DNA of 64,000 nt from Bdellovibrionales bacterium (GTDB lineage Bacteria > Bdellovibrionota > Bdellovibrionia > Bdellovibrionales > UBA1609). The notes under the pieces were generated by a model. That model worked only from the letters and a program-made list of their open reading frames with translations. It was not told the origin of the DNA and did not search any database. The stretch spans positions 62,001-126,000 of the forward strand of contig DAIDIG010000001.1 in the NCBI GenBank assembly GCA_027459485.1, given 5' to 3'. The position numbers were made by a program, and so were the translations under genes. Shown in pieces: positions 41,721 through 51,479 of the stretch; positions within the stretch are counted from its first letter, which is position 1; every line of letters starts with the position of its first letter.

Positions 41721-42521
41721 ATGGTGAATCGTGAACTCAACCTTCAACGAAAGAAAACCCGTATTCTGATTGCGGTGCTTTCAATTGCGCTCGGCGGGTG
41801 CGCGACGGTTGAGTCCGGTTTCGGCGGTGTCAGCATGAGCCCATATGGGCGGTTCAGTGAACTCCCTGAAGGGTCGAATTTCGTGAACCCGTTTGCAACC
41901 GTGCAATATTATGACCTTCGTCAACAAGGTTACACCGAACATTTTTTGACTTTGACGGCGGACGGAGCTGTGGTTGAAACGAGCGATTCGCTCGTGACGT
42001 ATCATATAGCGCGACATGAGCTCGTGGCGCTCGCGCGCGAAACCGGCCCCGATTACAAAAATATTTTAATACGTCCGGTTGTTCAGGCGGCTGTGCGCCG
42101 GGTTTTGGCGGGGTATCGATGGGATCAACTGGATTCAGCCCATATTCGCGAAGCCAGCGAGAAGATTACCGGGTTTGCCGCCGCTAAACTACGGCCGTAT
42201 CATATCGTATTAGAATCGGTCGTACTCAGAAACCTCGAAGTTCGCCAGCCGCTTTATGAGAAGGCCGTGATTCAAACATCAGTCATGAAACAGCGCGCGC
42301 TTCAAGAAAAATCAGACACCCAAATCGCCACCCATCGTGCGGAGCAACGCCGCATCGAAGCGAACGGCGTTGTCAAAGCTCATAAATTGATTGGGCCGAC
42401 ATTGACGAGGCGGGTTCTCGAAGATGACGAAATTAAAACCTGGGGAAGCCTTGTCGGCGCACCGAATACTCAGATAAAAATAATAGAATCGAATAACTCG
42501 GACGTGGAGGTTACACCATGA
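41721..42521 (+). CDS. SPFH/Band 7 domain lipoprotein, copy 1
   Basis: 266 aa. The signal sequence ends LGGCATV, a lipobox. The rest is an SPFH (prohibitin-like) domain: SLVTYHIARHELVALARETGPDY, VQAAVRRVLAGYRWDQL, LESVVLRNLEVRQPLYEKAV, then a helical coiled-coil end. SPFH proteins form large membrane rings or microdomains. Most have a transmembrane helix instead of a lipid anchor, so placing one on the periplasmic side is unusual. It overlaps its paralogue by four bases. Confidence 0.8.
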   Translation: MVNRELNLQRKKTRILIAVLSIALGGCATVESGFGGVSMSPYGRFSELPEGSNFVNPFATVQYYDLRQQGYTEHFLTLTADGAVVETSDSLVTYHIARHELVALARETGPDYKNILIRPVVQAAVRRVLAGYRWDQLDSAHIREASEKITGFAAAKLRPYHIVLESVVLRNLEVRQPLYEKAVIQTSVMKQRALQEKSDTQIATHRAEQRRIEANGVVKAHKLIGPTLTRRVLEDDEIKTWGSLVGAPNTQIKIIESNNSDVEVTP

Positions 42522-43324
42522 AATTGCATTATAAAAATCTGGCCGGATACGTCGCGCTTTTGGCCTCGGCTGCGACACTCAGCGCCTGTGCGACGGTCGG
42601 GCCCGGCCGAATCGGCGTGCTATGGACGTCGATGAGCGGCACGCAAAACAAAACGTACGGTGAAGGGTCTTATTACGTATTTCCTTGGAACGACATGTAC
42701 GTTTACAATTTGCGTACGCAAAACCACGACGAAGTTTTGGATGTGATCGCGTCGAACGGTCTCAACATAAAACTCGATGCTTCGATTCGTTACCACATTG
42801 ACCCTCAGCAGGTTGTTTCGCTTCAACGTGAAATCGGCCCGGATTATTATGACGTGGTGGTGGCGCCGATATTGCGATCCGAAGCGCGTCGCGTGATCGG
42901 TCAGTACACTCCCGAAGAAATTTATTCGACAAAACGCGATTTGATCGAGCGCGAAATTCGCGAAGGGTTGGCGACGAAAATGGCGGGTAAACACATCGAT
43001 TTAGAAGCCGTGCTCATTCGCAACGTCGAATTGCCCGATGCTATCCGGCGGGCGATTGATCAAAAACTCGAAGCTGAGCAAGACGTTCTTCGCATGAAAT
43101 ACATTTTGCAAGTCGCGCAGTCGAAAGCGGATCAACGTCGAATTCAGGCGCAGGGGATCGCCGATTACAACCACAAAATCGCCAATAGCCTCACGCCTTC
43201 GATTCTCGAATTTGAACGCATTCAGCAGCTGGGGCAACTAGCGAACTCGACCAACGCGAAAACCGTGGTCATGGGGCCGGGTATGAACCCCCGCGTTTTG
43301 CTCTCGACTAAACATGGCCAGTAG
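42518..43324 (+). CDS. SPFH/Band 7 domain lipoprotein, copy 2
   Basis: 268 aa. Lipobox LSACATV, then GPGRIGVLWTSMSGT, SIRYHIDPQQVVSLQREIGPDYYDVVVAPILRSEARRVIGQYTPEEIY, the prohibitin core, and a charged helix (EAEQDVLRMKYI). It aligns along its length with the preceding protein, sharing the LARETGPDY/LQREIGPDY and VLRNLEV/LIRNVEL blocks, so the pair arose by duplication. The two probably assemble together in the envelope. Confidence 0.82.
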   Translation: MKLHYKNLAGYVALLASAATLSACATVGPGRIGVLWTSMSGTQNKTYGEGSYYVFPWNDMYVYNLRTQNHDEVLDVIASNGLNIKLDASIRYHIDPQQVVSLQREIGPDYYDVVVAPILRSEARRVIGQYTPEEIYSTKRDLIEREIREGLATKMAGKHIDLEAVLIRNVELPDAIRRAIDQKLEAEQDVLRMKYILQVAQSKADQRRIQAQGIADYNHKIANSLTPSILEFERIQQLGQLANSTNAKTVVMGPGMNPRVLLSTKHGQ

Positions 43325-43360: not shown

Positions 43361-43903
43361 ATGGGTAGACTCATTTTTGTCTCCGCGCTCGCCGCGTTTT
43401 TTACTTTTGCAAGTGCTCCGGCAATGGCGGGGCTTTTGGTTGAACCCTACGTCGGTTATTATTCGGGCAAGTGGACGAAGGGGAATTGCAATTGTTCAGC
43501 GGGTCAAAGCGGCGCCACTTTTGGTGCGCGCGCTGGCGTGGAATCGGAAGGCTTCATGCTTGGTGCCGATGCGATGTCGGGGAGCTGGATCGACAAAAAC
43601 ACGCCGAGCGACGATGAAACGCCCGCGTCGGTGGGGGCGTTTGTCGGTTACACCGGCCGATCGTTTCGTATTTACGGCGGCTATGGAATCGCGTCGAGCC
43701 TTAAACAAAGCGCGGTTGGTTACAGCGACACATTTACAGGGACCGACTATAAAGTCGGGTTCGGTTTTCTACTCGTGCCGCTCATCGCGATCAACATCGA
43801 ATATCTCAACGCCACTTACACCAAAGATTCGAGCGGTCCGCTCACGCAGGATGTGAAAAGTTCGATGTGGGGCGCGAGTCTGAGTATTCCGGTCGACTTT
43901 TAG
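43361..43903 (+). CDS. Small outer-membrane beta-barrel protein
   Basis: 180 aa. Signal peptide to AMA-GL, then alternating strands (VEPYVGYYSGKW, FGARAGVESEGFMLGADAM, GAFVGYTGRSFRIYGGYGI) consistent with an eight-strand OmpA-like barrel, ending in PVDF with the C-terminal Phe. A Cys pair (CNCS) lies in the first loop. An AGAGGGG ribosome site precedes the ATG. Its place 36 bases after the SPFH pair suggests a linked envelope role. Confidence 0.7.
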   Translation: MGRLIFVSALAAFFTFASAPAMAGLLVEPYVGYYSGKWTKGNCNCSAGQSGATFGARAGVESEGFMLGADAMSGSWIDKNTPSDDETPASVGAFVGYTGRSFRIYGGYGIASSLKQSAVGYSDTFTGTDYKVGFGFLLVPLIAINIEYLNATYTKDSSGPLTQDVKSSMWGASLSIPVDF

Positions 43904-44075
43904 GTTACCCTGGCGTCTTTTCTCAAACTGATACAAATCACATTTCAAGTTCCTGTCTAAATCGTAACACTGTCAGCTTTTTGAACGGTTGTAAGCGACG
44001 CAGGGGCTTTCGACGACCGCTCCGCCAGCTCGGAATTTGCATGACATATTTATGCGACCTAAATGGGGGGAGATC

Positions 44076-45179
44076 ATGCAACTTAAACGACGTTTATTGT
44101 CTAAGCTTTTGATAGTCCTTTTTTATGCTTCTCTTTTTGTGACTCTTGGCCTTTGCTTCAACAATTGCCAGGCAACTCATGATTTAGCATCTGCTGACAG
44201 TGCTTCAATTTTATCGGCGGGTGGGACATTAACAGCTGACCCCACGCTTGAATCGCAGGCCGTTTCGATATTGAATACCTACTGCGTTGCTTGCCATGGC
44301 GGCGCGCCCGGGAATGGTGGTGTCCATAATATAACCGATAAAAACTCTCTTTTTCTTCAGGGACTCATCTTTCCCGGCAAAGGCACACAAGGTCTGTTAA
44401 TCAGCGCGATTTCACCTGGGGGACTAATGCCACCCGGAATGTCGCTGTCCTCGCAAGACGTTCAGACGATAGAAAACTGGATCGGCTCGATGAAAATTGT
44501 GCCGGCGGCGGTAGGCTCATCGACGTCCGGCTCTACCGGAACATCCGGCTCTACTGGTACACCCGGCTCTACTGGTACATCCGGCTCGTCTGGATCAACA
44601 GGAGCTGCAATCAATGCCGATCCCACACTAACGTCGCAAGCGCAAAGCATTTTGACGACGTATTGTGGCAGTTGTCACATATCGACTGCAGCTGGTGGTA
44701 TTTCAAATATCGACAATGCGAATTCGCTTTATGCGCAAGGGCTTATTGTTCCTGGGCAAGGCACGCAAGGGTCATTGATCGCTGCCATTTCACCCGGCGG
44801 CAATATGCCGCTCGGCAACGCCGGATCTATGTCGTCACAAAACTTAACTATTCTTGAGAACTGGATCAATTCTATGCAAGTTGTGGCTGGATCATCAGGA
44901 ACGTCTCCGACCGTTCCGCCGCCGCCGCCGCCTCTGACAGATACGTATCAAAGTTTAAATGCCAATATTTTCGTTCCATACTGCGTGTATTGCCATGGAC
45001 CCAATTCAAGCCAGGGTGATGGGCTGCGGCTCGATACGTATCAAAGCGTTTACAATAGCAGAGGCGACGTGCTTGAGAAGTGTTTATCCGGGAGTATGCC
45101 AAGAGGTGGCCCGCCACTAACCTCAGCGGAGCTCGCAGCCCTTCAAGACTGGGTAAACGCAGGCGCCCCAAACGACTGA
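44076..45179 (+). CDS. Exported protein with three cytochrome-c-like CxxCH domains
   Basis: 367 aa from the ATG at 44076, preceded by GGGGGGAG. The N-terminus is hydrophobic and ends LGLCFNNCQ, lipoprotein-like with Asn before the Cys. Three domains each have one haem motif and a possible distal Met: CVACH...MPPG, CGSCH...MPLG and CVYCH...MPRG. Domains 1 and 2 are close duplicates. Linkers are (GSTGTS)n and a proline run. It resembles planctomycete-type c cytochromes and would be a periplasmic or outer-membrane electron carrier. Confidence 0.78.
   Translation: MQLKRRLLSKLLIVLFYASLFVTLGLCFNNCQATHDLASADSASILSAGGTLTADPTLESQAVSILNTYCVACHGGAPGNGGVHNITDKNSLFLQGLIFPGKGTQGLLISAISPGGLMPPGMSLSSQDVQTIENWIGSMKIVPAAVGSSTSGSTGTSGSTGTPGSTGTSGSSGSTGAAINADPTLTSQAQSILTTYCGSCHISTAAGGISNIDNANSLYAQGLIVPGQGTQGSLIAAISPGGNMPLGNAGSMSSQNLTILENWINSMQVVAGSSGTSPTVPPPPPPLTDTYQSLNANIFVPYCVYCHGPNSSQGDGLRLDTYQSVYNSRGDVLEKCLSGSMPRGGPPLTSAELAALQDWVNAGAPND
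44526..44597 (+). repeat. Four 18-bp tandem repeats in the cytochrome linker
   Basis: Four consecutive 18-bp units, each close to TCCGGCTCTACTGGTACA, encode the repeating linker GSTGTS. They keep the reading frame, so copy-number change would alter linker length only. Confidence 0.9.
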
Positions 45180-45194
45180 AAGTGATCTGAGACA

Positions 45195-45222
45195 CCTCGC
45201 GAAGATTCAGTAAATCGCGGGG
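45195..45222 (+). terminator. Hairpin between convergent genes
   Basis: CCTCGCG pairs with CGCGGGG (one G-T pair) around a 14-base loop. It spans the stop codon of the minus-strand GTPase gene and follows the cytochrome gene. The T tract is poor, so it may act only as a transcript end stabiliser. Confidence 0.35.
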
Positions 45223-47204
45223 GGGTTCTCTTTCAATCGCCGAGTAGCGGAGCGTAATCTGTAGAATTCCTTAGTCACAGGAATTCCGTTTGGCTGAGGG
45301 TCAAATTTGGTGAAGCGATTAAATACATCTGTAAAAAACGGCAACTGCTGATCATGAAACCAGTCGCCGATTTTTTTGAGCCATTCTTTGCCCGGTTTGC
45401 GAGTATCCTTAAACGAAAGAAAGCGGGCCCATAATACAGCCGCGGCCAAGCCCATGGCAGTTTTGATATCAGCGGCCCCGGACATAAACATATACAGTAC
45501 AACCAACCCTGCTGGTGTCACTGCCAATACGGACCGGCCGTAGCTTTTTGTATTGTACCAAACTCCGGTTCGGCCCACAGCTTTCTCTAAATCCGCTTGA
45601 ACGATGTAAATCAAGCGAAAAACATTATCGAGCGATGATTTTTTTATTTCGTCGGCGATATGATCCCAATCGCGATTGAGAAACCCGTCGATTCGTCTAG
45701 TGACTTCCGGTACGCGAGGCAGGTGAAGTTCTACGAAATCGCCTTTTTCGACAATATACGGTGCTTCATTTTCGGGTATGTTGTATCGCTCGTGAATTTC
45801 ATCGACGGCCTTTTTAATTTTCAACACACCGTCCTCATCTTTCGGTAAGTTCATGTACCCGCGCGAAGCCGCGAGCAACATCACTGAAATGACGTGATCC
45901 ACAGTGGCATTCAAAAATGATTTCATGCGCTCGGTATCTTTTTCGTCCAGGGTCAAGGACGTCTTGATATTGCTGAACCAACCGAACGGATGCCCGATAA
46001 AACGGGCCATCGCGTGCAAGCCGAGTTTGCGGTTGATCGCTATTTCGTGAAGGTCAGTTGCCATTTTGTCGTGAGGGAAGTTTCGCAGCGATCGATCGAC
46101 AGAAGACCTCAATAAAACGCGAAACGCCTTATCGGTCAATCTCACATCCGCTTCGTTCAGTTCGAGGTGCTGGATGTCTTCATCGATGCCGTTGATAACA
46201 AATTTAAAATTGTTTTGTAGAGATTGGCGGCGTTGCTTGAGAGCGCCCAAATTTAATGTATCGAGCAGAACGGGAAATGGATCGGTATTCAATAAAGGCT
46301 TTAAGCTTGGTTGAGCTTGACCACCGGCCACGTCGGGTGAATCAATTAATGCGTACGTCCCCTGCACGGGGTCGGGAAAGCGAGTCTTAGGATTGATCGG
46401 CGAGTTTGGAAACATCGCCCGCGCCATTTCGTACAAATGGGTCAGCACATCTCGGGTTTGCATTGAGGCAGGGGCTCGAAATATTAGAATCACCGGCTTT
46501 TCGCCGATGCTGCGAAAGGTGTCGCGAAGCGTTTGAATATTGAACTCGTTGCGATAATTCGTATAAGTAAAAACATAGACGAGGACATCGCCCCAAAGTG
46601 CGGCTAGCGAAGCAGCTCGATGGTGTTCTTGAATATCAAACGACGGCGCGTCGATGAGAATCAGGTTTTTGTAGAACCGTTGTGCCGGGAATACGACCGG
46701 CGGGCCAGGTTTTACGGTCATCGCAGGTGACTCCCACGGCACAATTCTGCGGAATCGTTGCACGAGCATCGAACCGTGCGCAGTGGTTGCGTTAGTAACA
46801 AGGACTAACCTCGAAGTTGAACCTTCTGAAAAATCACGCGCCGAAATGCGATCGGGCGCGAGAAGCGAATTAAGTATCGTCGATTTACCTGAATTGCCGG
46901 GACCGACGAACGAAATGGCCAGTTGATTTGAATGAGATTGGCGCGCGGGAAGAATATAGTCGACTAATATTTGATACCAAGCCGGAGGATTGGGCTCACG
47001 CTCCAATCGATGCACGAGCGCTGGAGAATCCTGAATCAGATAGAGGAGAGCTTCGTCCGCCGACATTTTCTTGTCACCCGGGTCGGGGACCAATATTGCC
47101 TCGCACTTATCGCGCGACCTCTTCCAGGGAATTAACCTGACGGCGCTCGCCGCCTGCTCGTTTATCATAAGTAGACAAACGAGCAGGCAAATTATTCTCT
47201 TCAT
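45207..47204 (-). CDS. Dynamin-like P-loop GTPase with signal peptide and C-terminal membrane hairpin
   Basis: 665 aa. Residues 1-21 look like a Sec signal (MKR, hydrophobic IICLLVCLLMI, ASA cleavage site). The G domain has G1 FVGPGNSGKS (101-108), a Thr after EGS as possible G2, and G3 ILIDAPS (Asp185; Ser replaces the usual Gly). The expected (N/T)KxD G4 is not visible; FRAPA stands there. Helical regions follow, then two hydrophobic segments (about 558-577 and 582-598) and a basic tail. The order G domain, helical stalk, membrane hairpin suits a membrane-remodelling dynamin relative. The predicted export is hard to reconcile with GTP supply. Last gene of a four-gene operon. Confidence 0.72.
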   Translation of the reverse strand: MKRIICLLVCLLMINEQAASAVRLIPWKRSRDKCEAILVPDPGDKKMSADEALLYLIQDSPALVHRLEREPNPPAWYQILVDYILPARQSHSNQLAISFVGPGNSGKSTILNSLLAPDRISARDFSEGSTSRLVLVTNATTAHGSMLVQRFRRIVPWESPAMTVKPGPPVVFPAQRFYKNLILIDAPSFDIQEHHRAASLAALWGDVLVYVFTYTNYRNEFNIQTLRDTFRSIGEKPVILIFRAPASMQTRDVLTHLYEMARAMFPNSPINPKTRFPDPVQGTYALIDSPDVAGGQAQPSLKPLLNTDPFPVLLDTLNLGALKQRRQSLQNNFKFVINGIDEDIQHLELNEADVRLTDKAFRVLLRSSVDRSLRNFPHDKMATDLHEIAINRKLGLHAMARFIGHPFGWFSNIKTSLTLDEKDTERMKSFLNATVDHVISVMLLAASRGYMNLPKDEDGVLKIKKAVDEIHERYNIPENEAPYIVEKGDFVELHLPRVPEVTRRIDGFLNRDWDHIADEIKKSSLDNVFRLIYIVQADLEKAVGRTGVWYNTKSYGRSVLAVTPAGLVVLYMFMSGAADIKTAMGLAAAVLWARFLSFKDTRKPGKEWLKKIGDWFHDQQLPFFTDVFNRFTKFDPQPNGIPVTKEFYRLRSATRRLKENPPAIY

Positions 47205-47209
47205 AACTT

Positions 47210-48427
47210 CTATTTCTGTAAAATCGCACGGTAGACAGTTTTCTCGTCTGCATTATATTTCATAACTAAAGCATCTCGGTATTTTTGTGCGACAGTCGAA
47301 CTGAACAACATTTTGCCGACAATCAAGTTCTTAAATGCCGGAGTTCGATTGTTCAGATGGTATTGCGCGACAGTACGCTGAATCGTCGAAACTCCTTCGG
47401 CGCATTCTTGCATGTCAATCGAATACCGATCGTTGGAATTTAAATTACAAGTGACGTGAATGTTCGGAGCGTTTTCTTGTAACCATTCAAGGCCTTCGCG
47501 CGCTTGTCGGCGATTTTCGCGAAACAGAACGACGCGGTTCCAGCTGTAATCGCTACCGCTGAAAGTATTGGGGCCGAAGCCGAACTTCAGGTGTTGATAC
47601 CAATGGTTTTTCGGTGCCGCCAATTGGCTGATCAGGCGGATTTGCATTTCCATCGGACTGTCGGTGGCATCGAGATGAATGCGAAGCTCGCCTTGGTCCT
47701 CATACATGTTGCGATCGTGAGCGCCAAGTATGACGCGATCGAAGCCAAGTTTCGCCGCTTCTTCGGCGCTTGGTTGGTCCTTTACGTACAATGTCGAAAG
47801 AGCGAAACCGAGACGCTCGAGGCCGTCATGATAGACGATGGGTTGAATATCGGGGGCCGGGCTCACTCGTATAAAATATTTGCTCAGAATTTCATGTGCT
47901 CTTTCGCTATTTTCTTTTCGCACGTCCGATAAGCTCACATTGTTCAACAAATTCACTTCTTTGCTGATAAACTGAGCCATAACGTCTGAAGGAGCTTGAT
48001 AAGGGATCACGAGTTCTTGATCAGAGTACGTGAGACCACCCCAATCGCCGGCATCACCGATTTGAACGTACACTTCACGAACGAGCCGCTTCGAGTCTTC
48101 GTTCAGCTTCGAAAGAGCGATCTCCAGATTTTGCAACCCTTGCACGCAATCGCGGTTTTTTGTCGATGTCGAAAACATCCCTTCATCGCACGACGTGGTG
48201 ACGCCGAAAGCACCTTGAATGCGGTATTGCAGCTCCTTCGAATAGTCGGTATCGCCGCGCGCGATTTGTTCGACGCGCTGGCCGACTTTCGCCTGCACTT
48301 CTGCCGCAGGTGGCGGCATCGGCGGCACCGCGGCGGTTGCCACCGTTGCTAGTAATATTAGACCTGTGGCAAGCGTGAACCCGGTCGCGATGACTCGGTT
48401 AGCCCGCCCGTTGATTGATGGTTTCAT
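47210..48427 (-). CDS. Exported protein with repeated Cys motif (GTPase operon)
   Basis: 405 aa. A strong AAAGGAGGAAC site precedes the ATG. The signal peptide (FTLATGLILLATVATA-AV) is followed by a short proline-rich stretch. Two related segments are visible: TSCDEGMF...DCVQGLQNLEIAL near the N-terminus and VTCNLNSN...ECAEGVSTIQRTV near the C-terminus, each with two Cys about 15 residues apart, suggesting one disulfide per repeat. The middle is mixed alpha/beta. No family is recognised. It overlaps the upstream gene by 29 bases and precedes the GTPase by 5. Confidence 0.65.
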   Translation of the reverse strand: MKPSINGRANRVIATGFTLATGLILLATVATAAVPPMPPPAAEVQAKVGQRVEQIARGDTDYSKELQYRIQGAFGVTTSCDEGMFSTSTKNRDCVQGLQNLEIALSKLNEDSKRLVREVYVQIGDAGDWGGLTYSDQELVIPYQAPSDVMAQFISKEVNLLNNVSLSDVRKENSERAHEILSKYFIRVSPAPDIQPIVYHDGLERLGFALSTLYVKDQPSAEEAAKLGFDRVILGAHDRNMYEDQGELRIHLDATDSPMEMQIRLISQLAAPKNHWYQHLKFGFGPNTFSGSDYSWNRVVLFRENRRQAREGLEWLQENAPNIHVTCNLNSNDRYSIDMQECAEGVSTIQRTVAQYHLNNRTPAFKNLIVGKMLFSSTVAQKYRDALVMKYNADEKTVYRAILQK

Positions 48428-49598
48428 TTTTACGTTCCTCCTTTAAATGAATCAATGCCGCGTCGACCGAGCCGTATTTGGTCTCCATTTCGGCTAAAAA
48501 ATTTTGATTTTCGACGAGAAATTTGTACGCCGCTTGCCTATCCAATCCGGCTATGAGGTGCAAATAGGCATAATAAAGTTGCGGCGAGTTTAAGTTCGAT
48601 TGCGTGACCTGTTCACCTTTCGCCATGAGGTCGGCCCACTTCGATAGTGTCATGCCCTTGAGTGAAACGCCCGGTTGCAAAAACGAAAAGTGCGCCGACG
48701 CCTCGCTGTCGAGTTTCGTGAACGCCAGTGAAAACGCCACAAGTGCACCAACCGACATGGCCCATCGGAGTGCAGGCAAATCCACACTCACCTGGGCGCG
48801 CTTCAGTAGCGGTGAAACGCCTTTGACCCAGAGAAGTATGGAGCCAACCAATTCGCCGAGAGCCCATGTGACCCGTGCGACTTTCTTTCGTCGTGCTGCC
48901 ACATTATTTAAATGGCGGACGATATCGGCCGATGTTTTAAAATCGAGCGCACTGCGAAAGCCGAAGACGGTTTCGTGCAAATTCTTAAGATCCTGATGAG
49001 TTTGCACCAAAGCTGTCAGCCATTGCATGCGATTGGCTCGTACGCACTGTACTTGGGCCGTGGGGTCGAGCATCGAAATGCCGCCTTCTTGACCCGCGAT
49101 AGCCAAGCTAAAAAGCACGGTTTCGAACAGTTTGAGCGTGTAAAGCCGGCCCTCGATATTTTTTTTAAGATCAAGGTTTGACCCGTTGTCAGCCAACCAA
49201 ACGGTCGGCGATAAAAGCTGATCGTAGTATTCGACCAGTTGAGTTCCGACTGCCGCATATAGATGATCGAATCTTTCGCAGTTCGGTGAGCGGCTGGATA
49301 GATCGTTGGTCTCTCGTTCAACCTGGGCGAATGACGACTGAAACTCGTTCAGCGCATTCAATCTGGCTCGGGGATCGGTGGACGGAGCAACTCCATCGCG
49401 AATTCCAATGTACGTTTGTAGAGTTTGAATTTCGCGGTCCGTTTGCATTTCGTTCACCTCTCCAGCCGATACCATTTGTGTTCCCATTGTCAGGACGATC
49501 AACGTCGCCAATCCTTGCTTAATCCAGCGGCTGCGCCAATTGAGTCGGAACTTTCGCTTCGTTTTGCAGTTCCGTCCGCAAATCGTCAGGGAAGTCAT
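48399..49598 (-). CDS. Exported/membrane helical protein (GTPase operon)
   Basis: 399 aa. A basic 30-residue n-region leads into GLATLIVLTMGTQMVSA, a signal peptide or anchor. The ATG at 49598 is kept because no better start follows, but it overlaps the upstream gene by 80 bases, so a TTG near residue 30 is possible. The protein is mainly helical, with two hydrophobic segments (TWALGELVGSILLWVKGV and LRWAMSVGALVAFSLAF) and two isolated Cys. Not recognised. It is probably an envelope partner of the GTPase. Confidence 0.6.
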   Translation of the reverse strand: MTSLTICGRNCKTKRKFRLNWRSRWIKQGLATLIVLTMGTQMVSAGEVNEMQTDREIQTLQTYIGIRDGVAPSTDPRARLNALNEFQSSFAQVERETNDLSSRSPNCERFDHLYAAVGTQLVEYYDQLLSPTVWLADNGSNLDLKKNIEGRLYTLKLFETVLFSLAIAGQEGGISMLDPTAQVQCVRANRMQWLTALVQTHQDLKNLHETVFGFRSALDFKTSADIVRHLNNVAARRKKVARVTWALGELVGSILLWVKGVSPLLKRAQVSVDLPALRWAMSVGALVAFSLAFTKLDSEASAHFSFLQPGVSLKGMTLSKWADLMAKGEQVTQSNLNSPQLYYAYLHLIAGLDRQAAYKFLVENQNFLAEMETKYGSVDAALIHLKEERKNETINQRAG

Positions 49599-51246
49599 TG
49601 AGGTTTATTCCTTTTTTAGAGAGTGCAAGTAAGTAATCGTTAACTGTCAGATATCGGGTATTGATCGGATCAAGCGCCCAGAAGGTCAGCAAACCGGACG
49701 CGCTGCCGACGGCTGTGGATTGGATCCATTTTTTGCCGGCTTCGCTGGTCAGCATTTGCGACAAGCGTGAGTTGGTTGTCCAATCTTTTACTTGAGTTGT
49801 GCCACGTCTGAAGAAGCCGGCCGTGTCTTGAGCCCAGCCACGCATACGACTCGCGGCCATGCCGATAACAGTCGGGCCCGTCGTAATCAATCGATGGCCG
49901 TCTTCGGTAATAGTTTCAACTCCACGACCTCGGACGTAGAAATATTCGTAACCTTTCGACGTGATCGTGCGAACCGTTAAGTAGATTGTACCCTCGACCT
50001 GGTTCATCGCAAGGTACGGAATTCCAGTTCGGTTGAACTTCAAACCCCGTATAATTTCCATTTGTTCAGGGGCAACAGGGATGACTTCAAACCCACGCGC
50101 CAGCTGCGGCGGCAACGCACGGGCCATATCGCGCACAATCACTTGTTCCGGCGTCAAACGGCCGAATCGAGTTTTGAGCGCGCCCATCACGCGAATATAA
50201 AGAGAAGGGCGTACTGCTTTCACGACCGGAGAGACTGTTCCGCTCGGTGATACAGTTTCGCCTGTTACAGTTTCGCCAGTTGCGCCTGGGATGGTTCCAT
50301 TTGTCGATTCGCCGACAGTTCCGGCGACGTCATCGAAAGTTTCAGGGCGGGAGACTTGGGCCGCTTGCTCAACGGCGGCTTCGCTGGCAGCGACTTCAGC
50401 TGCCTGTTGCGGAGCCACTCCGGCAGCCGTGGCACCGGCGGCACTTGCCGCACGAGATGCAGCGGTGGCATCTTCAGCGGCCGTCTCAGAGACGATGCCT
50501 TCAGCCGCGGATTTGCTGCCGCGCCTAAATAATGAACTGATCCAATCTGAGGTTGTTTGATATCCGCGCTTAATGCCATTCACGATGGCATTTTTCGGTG
50601 TCTGCACGATTGAAGAATCAAGTGCGTTGCTGCCGGCATCCACGATCTCAGGGGCGTAAGCACCTGTCACCAGAGCAACAACGGTCGCAGTCCCATATTT
50701 AAAGTATCGACCGTAGCGATCGTGATCTTGAATTGTTTGAATCAACCGCTTATTGAGGGCCGTATCGAGAATTTGAACTTTATCCTCATCTTCGGCGGAA
50801 AATTGGCCGGCATTGCGCAACTTTAAAATGGCTGCCGAAATTTCGCCCAGCCGAATCGGGGCTTTTCTCTGTGTATCAAAAACTTGATCCACGACTGTTT
50901 CGCCAGAGAACGTACCCCTTAAGTACCCAACGAGCAGGCGGCCGCCCTTCGTATTGATTGCCGTGGCTGGCGGTACGTCGTTTGGGATTTGCCCAATACG
51001 CGACTGCACGCCGAGGGCGGCTCCGGTAAAAGGGACGAGGAGTCCTCCTCGACTTGTTGAATTCGGAGTACCCGATGTGTTGGTGTGGGATTGGGCCGAA
51101 TTTTGTGCCGACGTGTTCGCCGTGCCCTTATTGTCTTGGCTCGTATTCGGCGGCGCTGAATTCTTGGTGGAATGCGATCGGGGCGCGCATCCAAACAGAA
51201 ATAGGATAGCTATGGCGGTGCCCACCACTCGTTCTTTGCTCTTCAT
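49519..51246 (-). CDS. Large lipoprotein (GTPase operon)
   Basis: 575 aa from the ATG at 51246, which has an AGAGGAG site; upstream frame extensions lack one. The signal peptide ends FLFGCAPRS, an acceptable lipobox. A Ser/Thr/Asn-rich linker, a folded region (GRRLLVGYLRGTFSGETVVDQ), a hydrophobic patch (ATVVALVTGAYAP), an Ala/Glu-rich low-complexity region of about 70 residues and a C-terminal domain with YFYVRGRGVETI follow. A second hydrophobic segment (VGSASGLLTFWAL) lies near the end. No family is recognised. It is the first gene of the operon, so it sets the transcript start. Confidence 0.65.
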   Translation of the reverse strand: MKSKERVVGTAIAILFLFGCAPRSHSTKNSAPPNTSQDNKGTANTSAQNSAQSHTNTSGTPNSTSRGGLLVPFTGAALGVQSRIGQIPNDVPPATAINTKGGRLLVGYLRGTFSGETVVDQVFDTQRKAPIRLGEISAAILKLRNAGQFSAEDEDKVQILDTALNKRLIQTIQDHDRYGRYFKYGTATVVALVTGAYAPEIVDAGSNALDSSIVQTPKNAIVNGIKRGYQTTSDWISSLFRRGSKSAAEGIVSETAAEDATAASRAASAAGATAAGVAPQQAAEVAASEAAVEQAAQVSRPETFDDVAGTVGESTNGTIPGATGETVTGETVSPSGTVSPVVKAVRPSLYIRVMGALKTRFGRLTPEQVIVRDMARALPPQLARGFEVIPVAPEQMEIIRGLKFNRTGIPYLAMNQVEGTIYLTVRTITSKGYEYFYVRGRGVETITEDGHRLITTGPTVIGMAASRMRGWAQDTAGFFRRGTTQVKDWTTNSRLSQMLTSEAGKKWIQSTAVGSASGLLTFWALDPINTRYLTVNDYLLALSKKGINLNDFPDDLRTELQNEAKVPTQLAQPLD

Positions 51247-51479
51247 GATTTTTCTCCTCTGCGCAAAGCCCCTCAGGTCGTTGGCCGCACGCCACGAAAA
51301 TTGGCCTGCTGTTGCCTCACGCGAAAAATATTTAACACATCCGACATGGCGTCTTTGCAACGGCCATGCCATTTCGAATGCCGTGTAAGATCGTTGAAAA
51401 TATTGAGCGGTCGGTTCTAACAGTAACGACCATGTTCAATATTGCCTCGTACGGGGAAGTTCGCCTCGTTGACCATGCG

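Follow-up and report, generated by a model that had tools for sequence, protein, structure and literature searches.

Dynamins are treated as cytosolic, GTP-driven machines, and GTP is scarce outside the cytoplasm. BDLP of Nostoc (2j69) has canonical G motifs and is cytosolic, mitofusins retain their GTP motifs and face the cytosol, and the EHD ATPases, in which a dynamin fold uses a non-guanine base, are eukaryotic and cytosolic. Mgm1/OPA1 is a dynamin of the mitochondrial intermembrane space, a compartment equivalent to the periplasm. It is an active GTPase, and GTP arrives there through porins. Bacterial dynamins frequently act in pairs, e.g., DLP1/DLP2 of Campylobacter (PMC6104087). The dynamin-like LeoA, of the LeoA/LeoBC system of E. 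coli, was found in the periplasm, which was called unexpected since nucleotides are absent there, and the Leo proteins have no obvious signal sequence (PMC4159319). LeoA, without such a sequence, is the sole periplasmic bacterial dynamin for which we found a report. In the open-access literature no paper was found on exported dynamins with signal peptides in Bdellovibrionota.

The stretch analysed here (the window) comprises 64,000 nucleotides from a Bdellovibrionales bacterium. The open reading frame at 45207-47204 on the minus strand encodes a predicted exported dynamin-superfamily homologue of 665 aa, P0001. Its position and motifs agree with the original prediction, which had described an intact GPGNSGKS, DAPS, and FRAPA in place of NKxD. 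By Pfam, P0001 falls marginally below threshold as a P-loop GTPase (MMR_HSR1, 21.4 bits against a cut-off of 21.9) and further below it for Dynamin_N (14.3 against 27). Relatives retrieved via P0001 exceed both cut-offs, and that of Dynamin_N is exceeded by L042, L043, and L045. What is unusual is the occurrence of dynamin homologues with clear predicted Sec signals at three separate positions in the tree, part of them with NKAD intact and part without. They make it testable whether a dynamin works outside the cytoplasm, and on what energy.

The fold was examined on an AlphaFold2 model built from an alignment of five rows. Its mean pLDDT is 68.6, with values of 70-92 in most of the G domain and below 50 in the hairpin. 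The model resembles BDLP, Fzo1/mitofusin, and SynDLP. Its top Foldseek match is BDLP (2j69, E 4.5e-10), followed by dynamin, the Campylobacter DLP pair, Mfn1, and EHD. With VIA the best match is Fzo1 (9kfe; Z 19.1, rmsd 3.8, 299 residues across 48-665). For Fzo1 and Mfn1 the Z-scores are 18-19, with about 300 residues aligned between residue 48 and the C-terminus; unrelated GTPases reach about Z 12. Both searches give the G domain a GTPase fold homologous to that of dynamins, and in a model of middling confidence the Fzo1/Mfn1 alignment also covers a helical neck/trunk with a packed N-terminal helix. A hydrophobic hairpin near the C-terminus (residues 559-598; 45411-45530, minus strand) would be equivalent to the paddle or transmembrane segment. 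Hydrophobic C-terminal segments are found in all full-length homologues, at the position of the BDLP paddle and of the mitofusin membrane hairpin. As modelled, P0001 is a BDLP/mitofusin-type dynamin homologue, and the superfamily membership presumed in the original prediction is borne out by the modelled fold. It shares with BDLP the G domain, the long helical neck/trunk, and the hydrophobic tip, and with mitofusin/Fzo1 the bundle of N- and C-terminal helices and the hairpin. Unlike BDLP, it has a signal peptide and no NKxD.

The nucleotide-binding motifs of P0001 are partly retained. The G1 P-loop GPGNSGKS (residues 101-108; 46881-46904, minus strand) agrees with GxxxxGK(S/T), and its Lys and Ser are retained in the exported members. 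The G2 threonine T130 (46815-46817, minus strand) is invariant across the aligned exported proteins. The G3 position reads DAPS rather than DxxG (residues 185-188; 46641-46652, minus strand); D185 and P187 are invariant, and Gly is replaced by S, A, or D in every exported member. At the G4 place, where (N/T)KxD (RD in GBP/atlastin) is expected, stands FRAPA (residues 242-246; 46467-46481, minus strand). FRAPA terminates the strand that carries NKxD in relatives, and R-A-P-A aligns column by column with N-K-x-D. In the window subfamily this place reads RAPA, RAPA, RAPS, and RGSH, and YRAG in the second copy of G058. Its Arg (R243 in P0001) is invariant there, and both base-contacting G4 residues are missing throughout. 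No canonical G4 is seen elsewhere in P0001, in whose AlphaFold2 model the strand before FRAPA lies at 238-244. Judging from the alignment, guanine recognition is lost throughout the window subfamily, as had been proposed for P0001, whereas the residues for phosphate and Mg (P-loop, G2 Thr, G3 Asp) are retained. That the degenerate G4 is kept across the window subfamily, and a predicted signal peptide in every homologue with an intact N-terminus, is more than chance. Since NKxD is lacking at G4, we class P0001 as a candidate pseudo-GTPase homologous to dynamins rather than as a dynamin GTPase.

Motif degeneracy by itself is not new, because cytosolic relatives also carry DxPD and lack NKxD. NKxD is found in only 5 of the 26 aligned non-exported relatives, and many of them have DxPD at G3, a frequency partly ascertained by the search pattern used to find them. 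The closest cytosolic relative, L071 (Desulfobacteraceae; E 3e-21 to P0001, 349 aa aligned), already has DAPD at G3 and YRTGSSM at G4. The claim that each possible explanation of P0001 would be new for the dynamin superfamily therefore does not hold. Use of another nucleotide would not be unprecedented either, since the dynamin family includes ATPases, the EHD proteins (titles of 2qpt, 4cid, and 5mtv), and a periplasmic dynamin is already on record in LeoA (PMC4159319). P0001 itself matches the LeoA profile weakly and in the P-loop region only (E 0.0013). Among exported relatives, L043 matches the LeoBC profile of PADLOC with E 3e-9 and L045 the LeoA profile with E 3e-6.

In contrast to the Leo proteins, P0001 begins with a predicted Sec signal peptide, MKRIICLLVCLLMINEQAASA (47142-47204, minus strand), with cleavage before V22. 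By a heuristic its n-region has charge +2 and is followed by an uncharged core of 11 residues and an A-x-A site. The same simple heuristic, with a threshold seen post hoc and with relatives taken from their most upstream start, finds a signal peptide in all nine exported homologues with an intact N-terminus and in none of about 46 non-exported relatives. The nine differ in sequence, yet each has a short n-region, basic or neutral, ahead of a hydrophobic core and a small-x-small site. This conservation upholds the signal peptide of the original prediction. Cysteine content points the same way: the exported mature parts have 0.21 Cys per 100 aa versus 0.71 in the cytosolic relatives, 41 in number (p 2.5e-6 by Fisher's test and 5e-4 by the Mann-Whitney test, statistics that ignore phylogeny and base composition (GC)). 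The closest non-exported relatives, L071, L056, and L057, have 7, 7, and 11 Cys, compared with 1 in their exported neighbours. The mature N-terminus of P0001, VRLIPWKRSRDK, is strongly basic, with +5/-1 in the first 12 residues. Such an N-terminus usually hinders translocation, and here it counts against export. At third codon positions, conservation in the signal peptide region (47142-47204) is 0.81 and 0.67, compared with about 0.3-0.4 in the rest of the gene, hinting at a constraint on the translation start.

By whole-genome searches, the gene is present in three of the six genomes of the genus: G000, G003 (45%), and G005 (59%, N-terminal part). G058, from another family of the same order, has two copies, and by profile search the gene was also found in G205, G273, G277, and G278, all from the same phylum. 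Since related exported proteins are found elsewhere in the phylum, the arrangement is real and unusual. Weak family matches in the order cover the P-loop region only, look like housekeeping GTPases, and were dropped. A scan of species genomes yielded about 150 other matches besides L054, a protein from Oligoflexales. About 50 matches were inspected, and apart from the exported L054 none has a signal peptide. No match was found in a plasmid protein search with P0001, in a first scan of genome contigs using P0001 alone, or in viral contigs searched with A1.

In a provisional G-domain tree (35 rows, 202 alignment columns, long branches), exported proteins are found in three places. These are the window group, with the cytosolic L071 as sister; the exported proteins of G277, G278, and Oligoflexales; and the G273 protein, beside cytosolic proteins of Planctomycetaceae. 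The well-supported branches force three label changes, so the idea that all exported members go back to one unbroken origin was provisionally set aside. The three changes may represent one gain and two losses. At L071 (9821-13610, plus strand) two dynamin-like genes overlap, one with the degenerate G4 YRTGSSM and the other with NKCD. Because the closest relative is the degenerate member of such a pair, the window lineage probably arose from the degenerate protein in a cytosolic dynamin-like pair. The pairing at L071 recalls Campylobacter DLP1/DLP2. P0001 differs from that pair in having no second dynamin-like gene beside it, and its own genome contains no second match to it.

The P0001 gene closes a run of four genes on the minus strand (45207-51372), all of whose products have a predicted N-terminal export signal or lipobox. 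The other three products, whose predicted export is in line with that of P0001, have no family match. Partner 1 (47210-48427, minus strand; 405 aa, predicted exported) is restricted to the three genomes of the genus that have the dynamin gene and is absent from G058 and the other relatives searched. Its Cys 80, 94, 327, and 342 are invariant in the three genomes. An apparent repeated motif is also seen in it (CVQGLQNLEIAL, HDGLERLNFAL, CAEGVSTIQRT). Its AlphaFold2 model (mean pLDDT 44.7) is too poor for a structure search. Partner 2 (48399-49598, minus strand) is a predicted exported protein of 399 aa. Partner 3 (49519-51372, minus strand) is a predicted lipoprotein with the lipobox LFGC and probably starts at codon 43, at about 51246. 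When partners 1 and 3 were compared by sequence with solved structures, only weak and implausible matches to ribosomal proteins were obtained.

On the plus strand, two exported SPFH-like lipoproteins are encoded in tandem (41721-43324), and Band_7 was tested for the second only (42518-43324; E 2e-33), a predicted exported SPFH/Band 7 lipoprotein whose neighbourhood is partly kept in G005. DynA of B. subtilis is genetically linked to flotillin (PMC3551649), and the SPFH lipoproteins near the gene recall this link, as a lead only. A small predicted exported protein follows (43361-43903, plus strand), and in G003 and G005 its homologue adjoins the dynamin gene. The interval from the SPFH cluster to the dynamin operon holds a gene for an exported cytochrome c-like protein (44037-45179, plus strand) with PF13442 in two stretches. 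It is not found at this spot in G003 or G005.

We lean towards P0001 being a periplasmic, membrane-attached dynamin homologue without a GTP cycle, which tethers or remodels membrane and whose G domain is now a structural module. P0001 would no longer cycle on GTP, and its G domain would have become a module for dimerisation or assembly, perhaps steadied by phosphate or nucleotide. From the periplasm it would tether or reshape the inner or the outer membrane, and its three exported operon partners would act together with it. Its ancestor would be the degenerate member of a cytosolic dynamin-like pair comparable to that at L071. We infer its periplasmic location, membrane attachment, and role from sequence, and membrane remodelling from the superfamily only. 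It would share its kind of compartment with Mgm1/OPA1, but not the activity of that GTPase. A dynamin acting without GTP is not absurd, since Mg-dependent, GTP-independent fusion by DynA of B. subtilis is cited in PMC4159319. The invariance of the P-loop Lys and Ser, of the G2 Thr, and of the G3 Asp points to continued binding of a nucleotide or of phosphate. This counts against a purely structural role, for which no such ligand is needed.

The main rival to a structural G domain is that a nucleotide is used after all. P0001 would be exported and would still bind a nucleotide, not GTP but ATP or any NTP, and hydrolyse it to drive membrane remodelling outside the cytoplasm, the nucleotide coming from prey, by lysis, or by secretion. 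We consider this unlikely but far from implausible. It would explain the phosphate/Mg residues retained in exported members, and the NKAD/NKSD retained in the exported L043, L045, and L054 suggests that sister lineages bind guanine outside the cytoplasm. The EHDs are existing ATPases of the dynamin family, and exported ABC1-type kinases adjoin two exported dynamin genes and have profile matches in 59 of the 369 genomes of the phylum. On the other hand, P0001 has lost G4 together with its base-packing Lys, the window lineage has no match to the exported ABC1 profile, and the periplasm is generally taken as free of NTP (PMC4159319). A wider proposal, which seems rather unlikely to us, is that Bdellovibrionota repeatedly exported dynamin-like proteins and, separately, ABC1-type kinases by means of Sec signals, for NTP-dependent membrane remodelling and phosphorylation in the periplasm or the prey-cell space with the nucleotides present there, and that the window dynamin dropped guanine specificity to suit.

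Two other explanations place the G domain in the cytosol. The original prediction had offered an inverted topology. In that case the N-terminal segment would be an uncleaved N-out/C-in anchor. The cytosol would supply GTP, and the basic flank VRLIPWKRSRDK after the core, which outweighs the charge of the N-terminal MKR, favours such an orientation. This topology is nevertheless disfavoured, and we regard it as distinctly improbable, because the 11-residue uncharged core is too short to span a membrane, an A-x-A cleavage site is present, and Cys is depleted. The operon is co-exported as well, and the NKAD-type exported L043 and L054 have a signal peptide yet no such basic flank. It is very improbable that P0001 is an ordinary cytosolic GTPase with a mis-called start, e.g., at Met47. 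L071 does have a possible start, Met23, near the equivalent of residue 44. However, the ATG of P0001 lies 5 nt past the stop of the upstream gene, a coupling with the same spacing in G005. Neither G003 nor G005 conserves Met47, and in the signal peptide region both the codons and the amino acids are conserved.

In two lineages, genes for kinase-like proteins of the ABC1/UbiB type (PF03109) that carry signal peptides directly adjoin exported dynamin-like genes, at L054 (6684-9890, plus strand) and L045 (10825-13689, plus strand). One of the two is 9 bp upstream and the other is divergent. Further ABC1-type kinase loci are L154, L156, L169-L177, L181-L183, L185, and L186. Exported kinase-like lipoproteins with catalytic motifs merit a study of their own. 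Several exported ABC1-type kinases have intact HADLHxGN and DFG motifs, and in most of the inspected profile matches a signal peptide or lipobox stands at the N-terminus and H(A/S)DLHxGN, or a motif like it, is retained.
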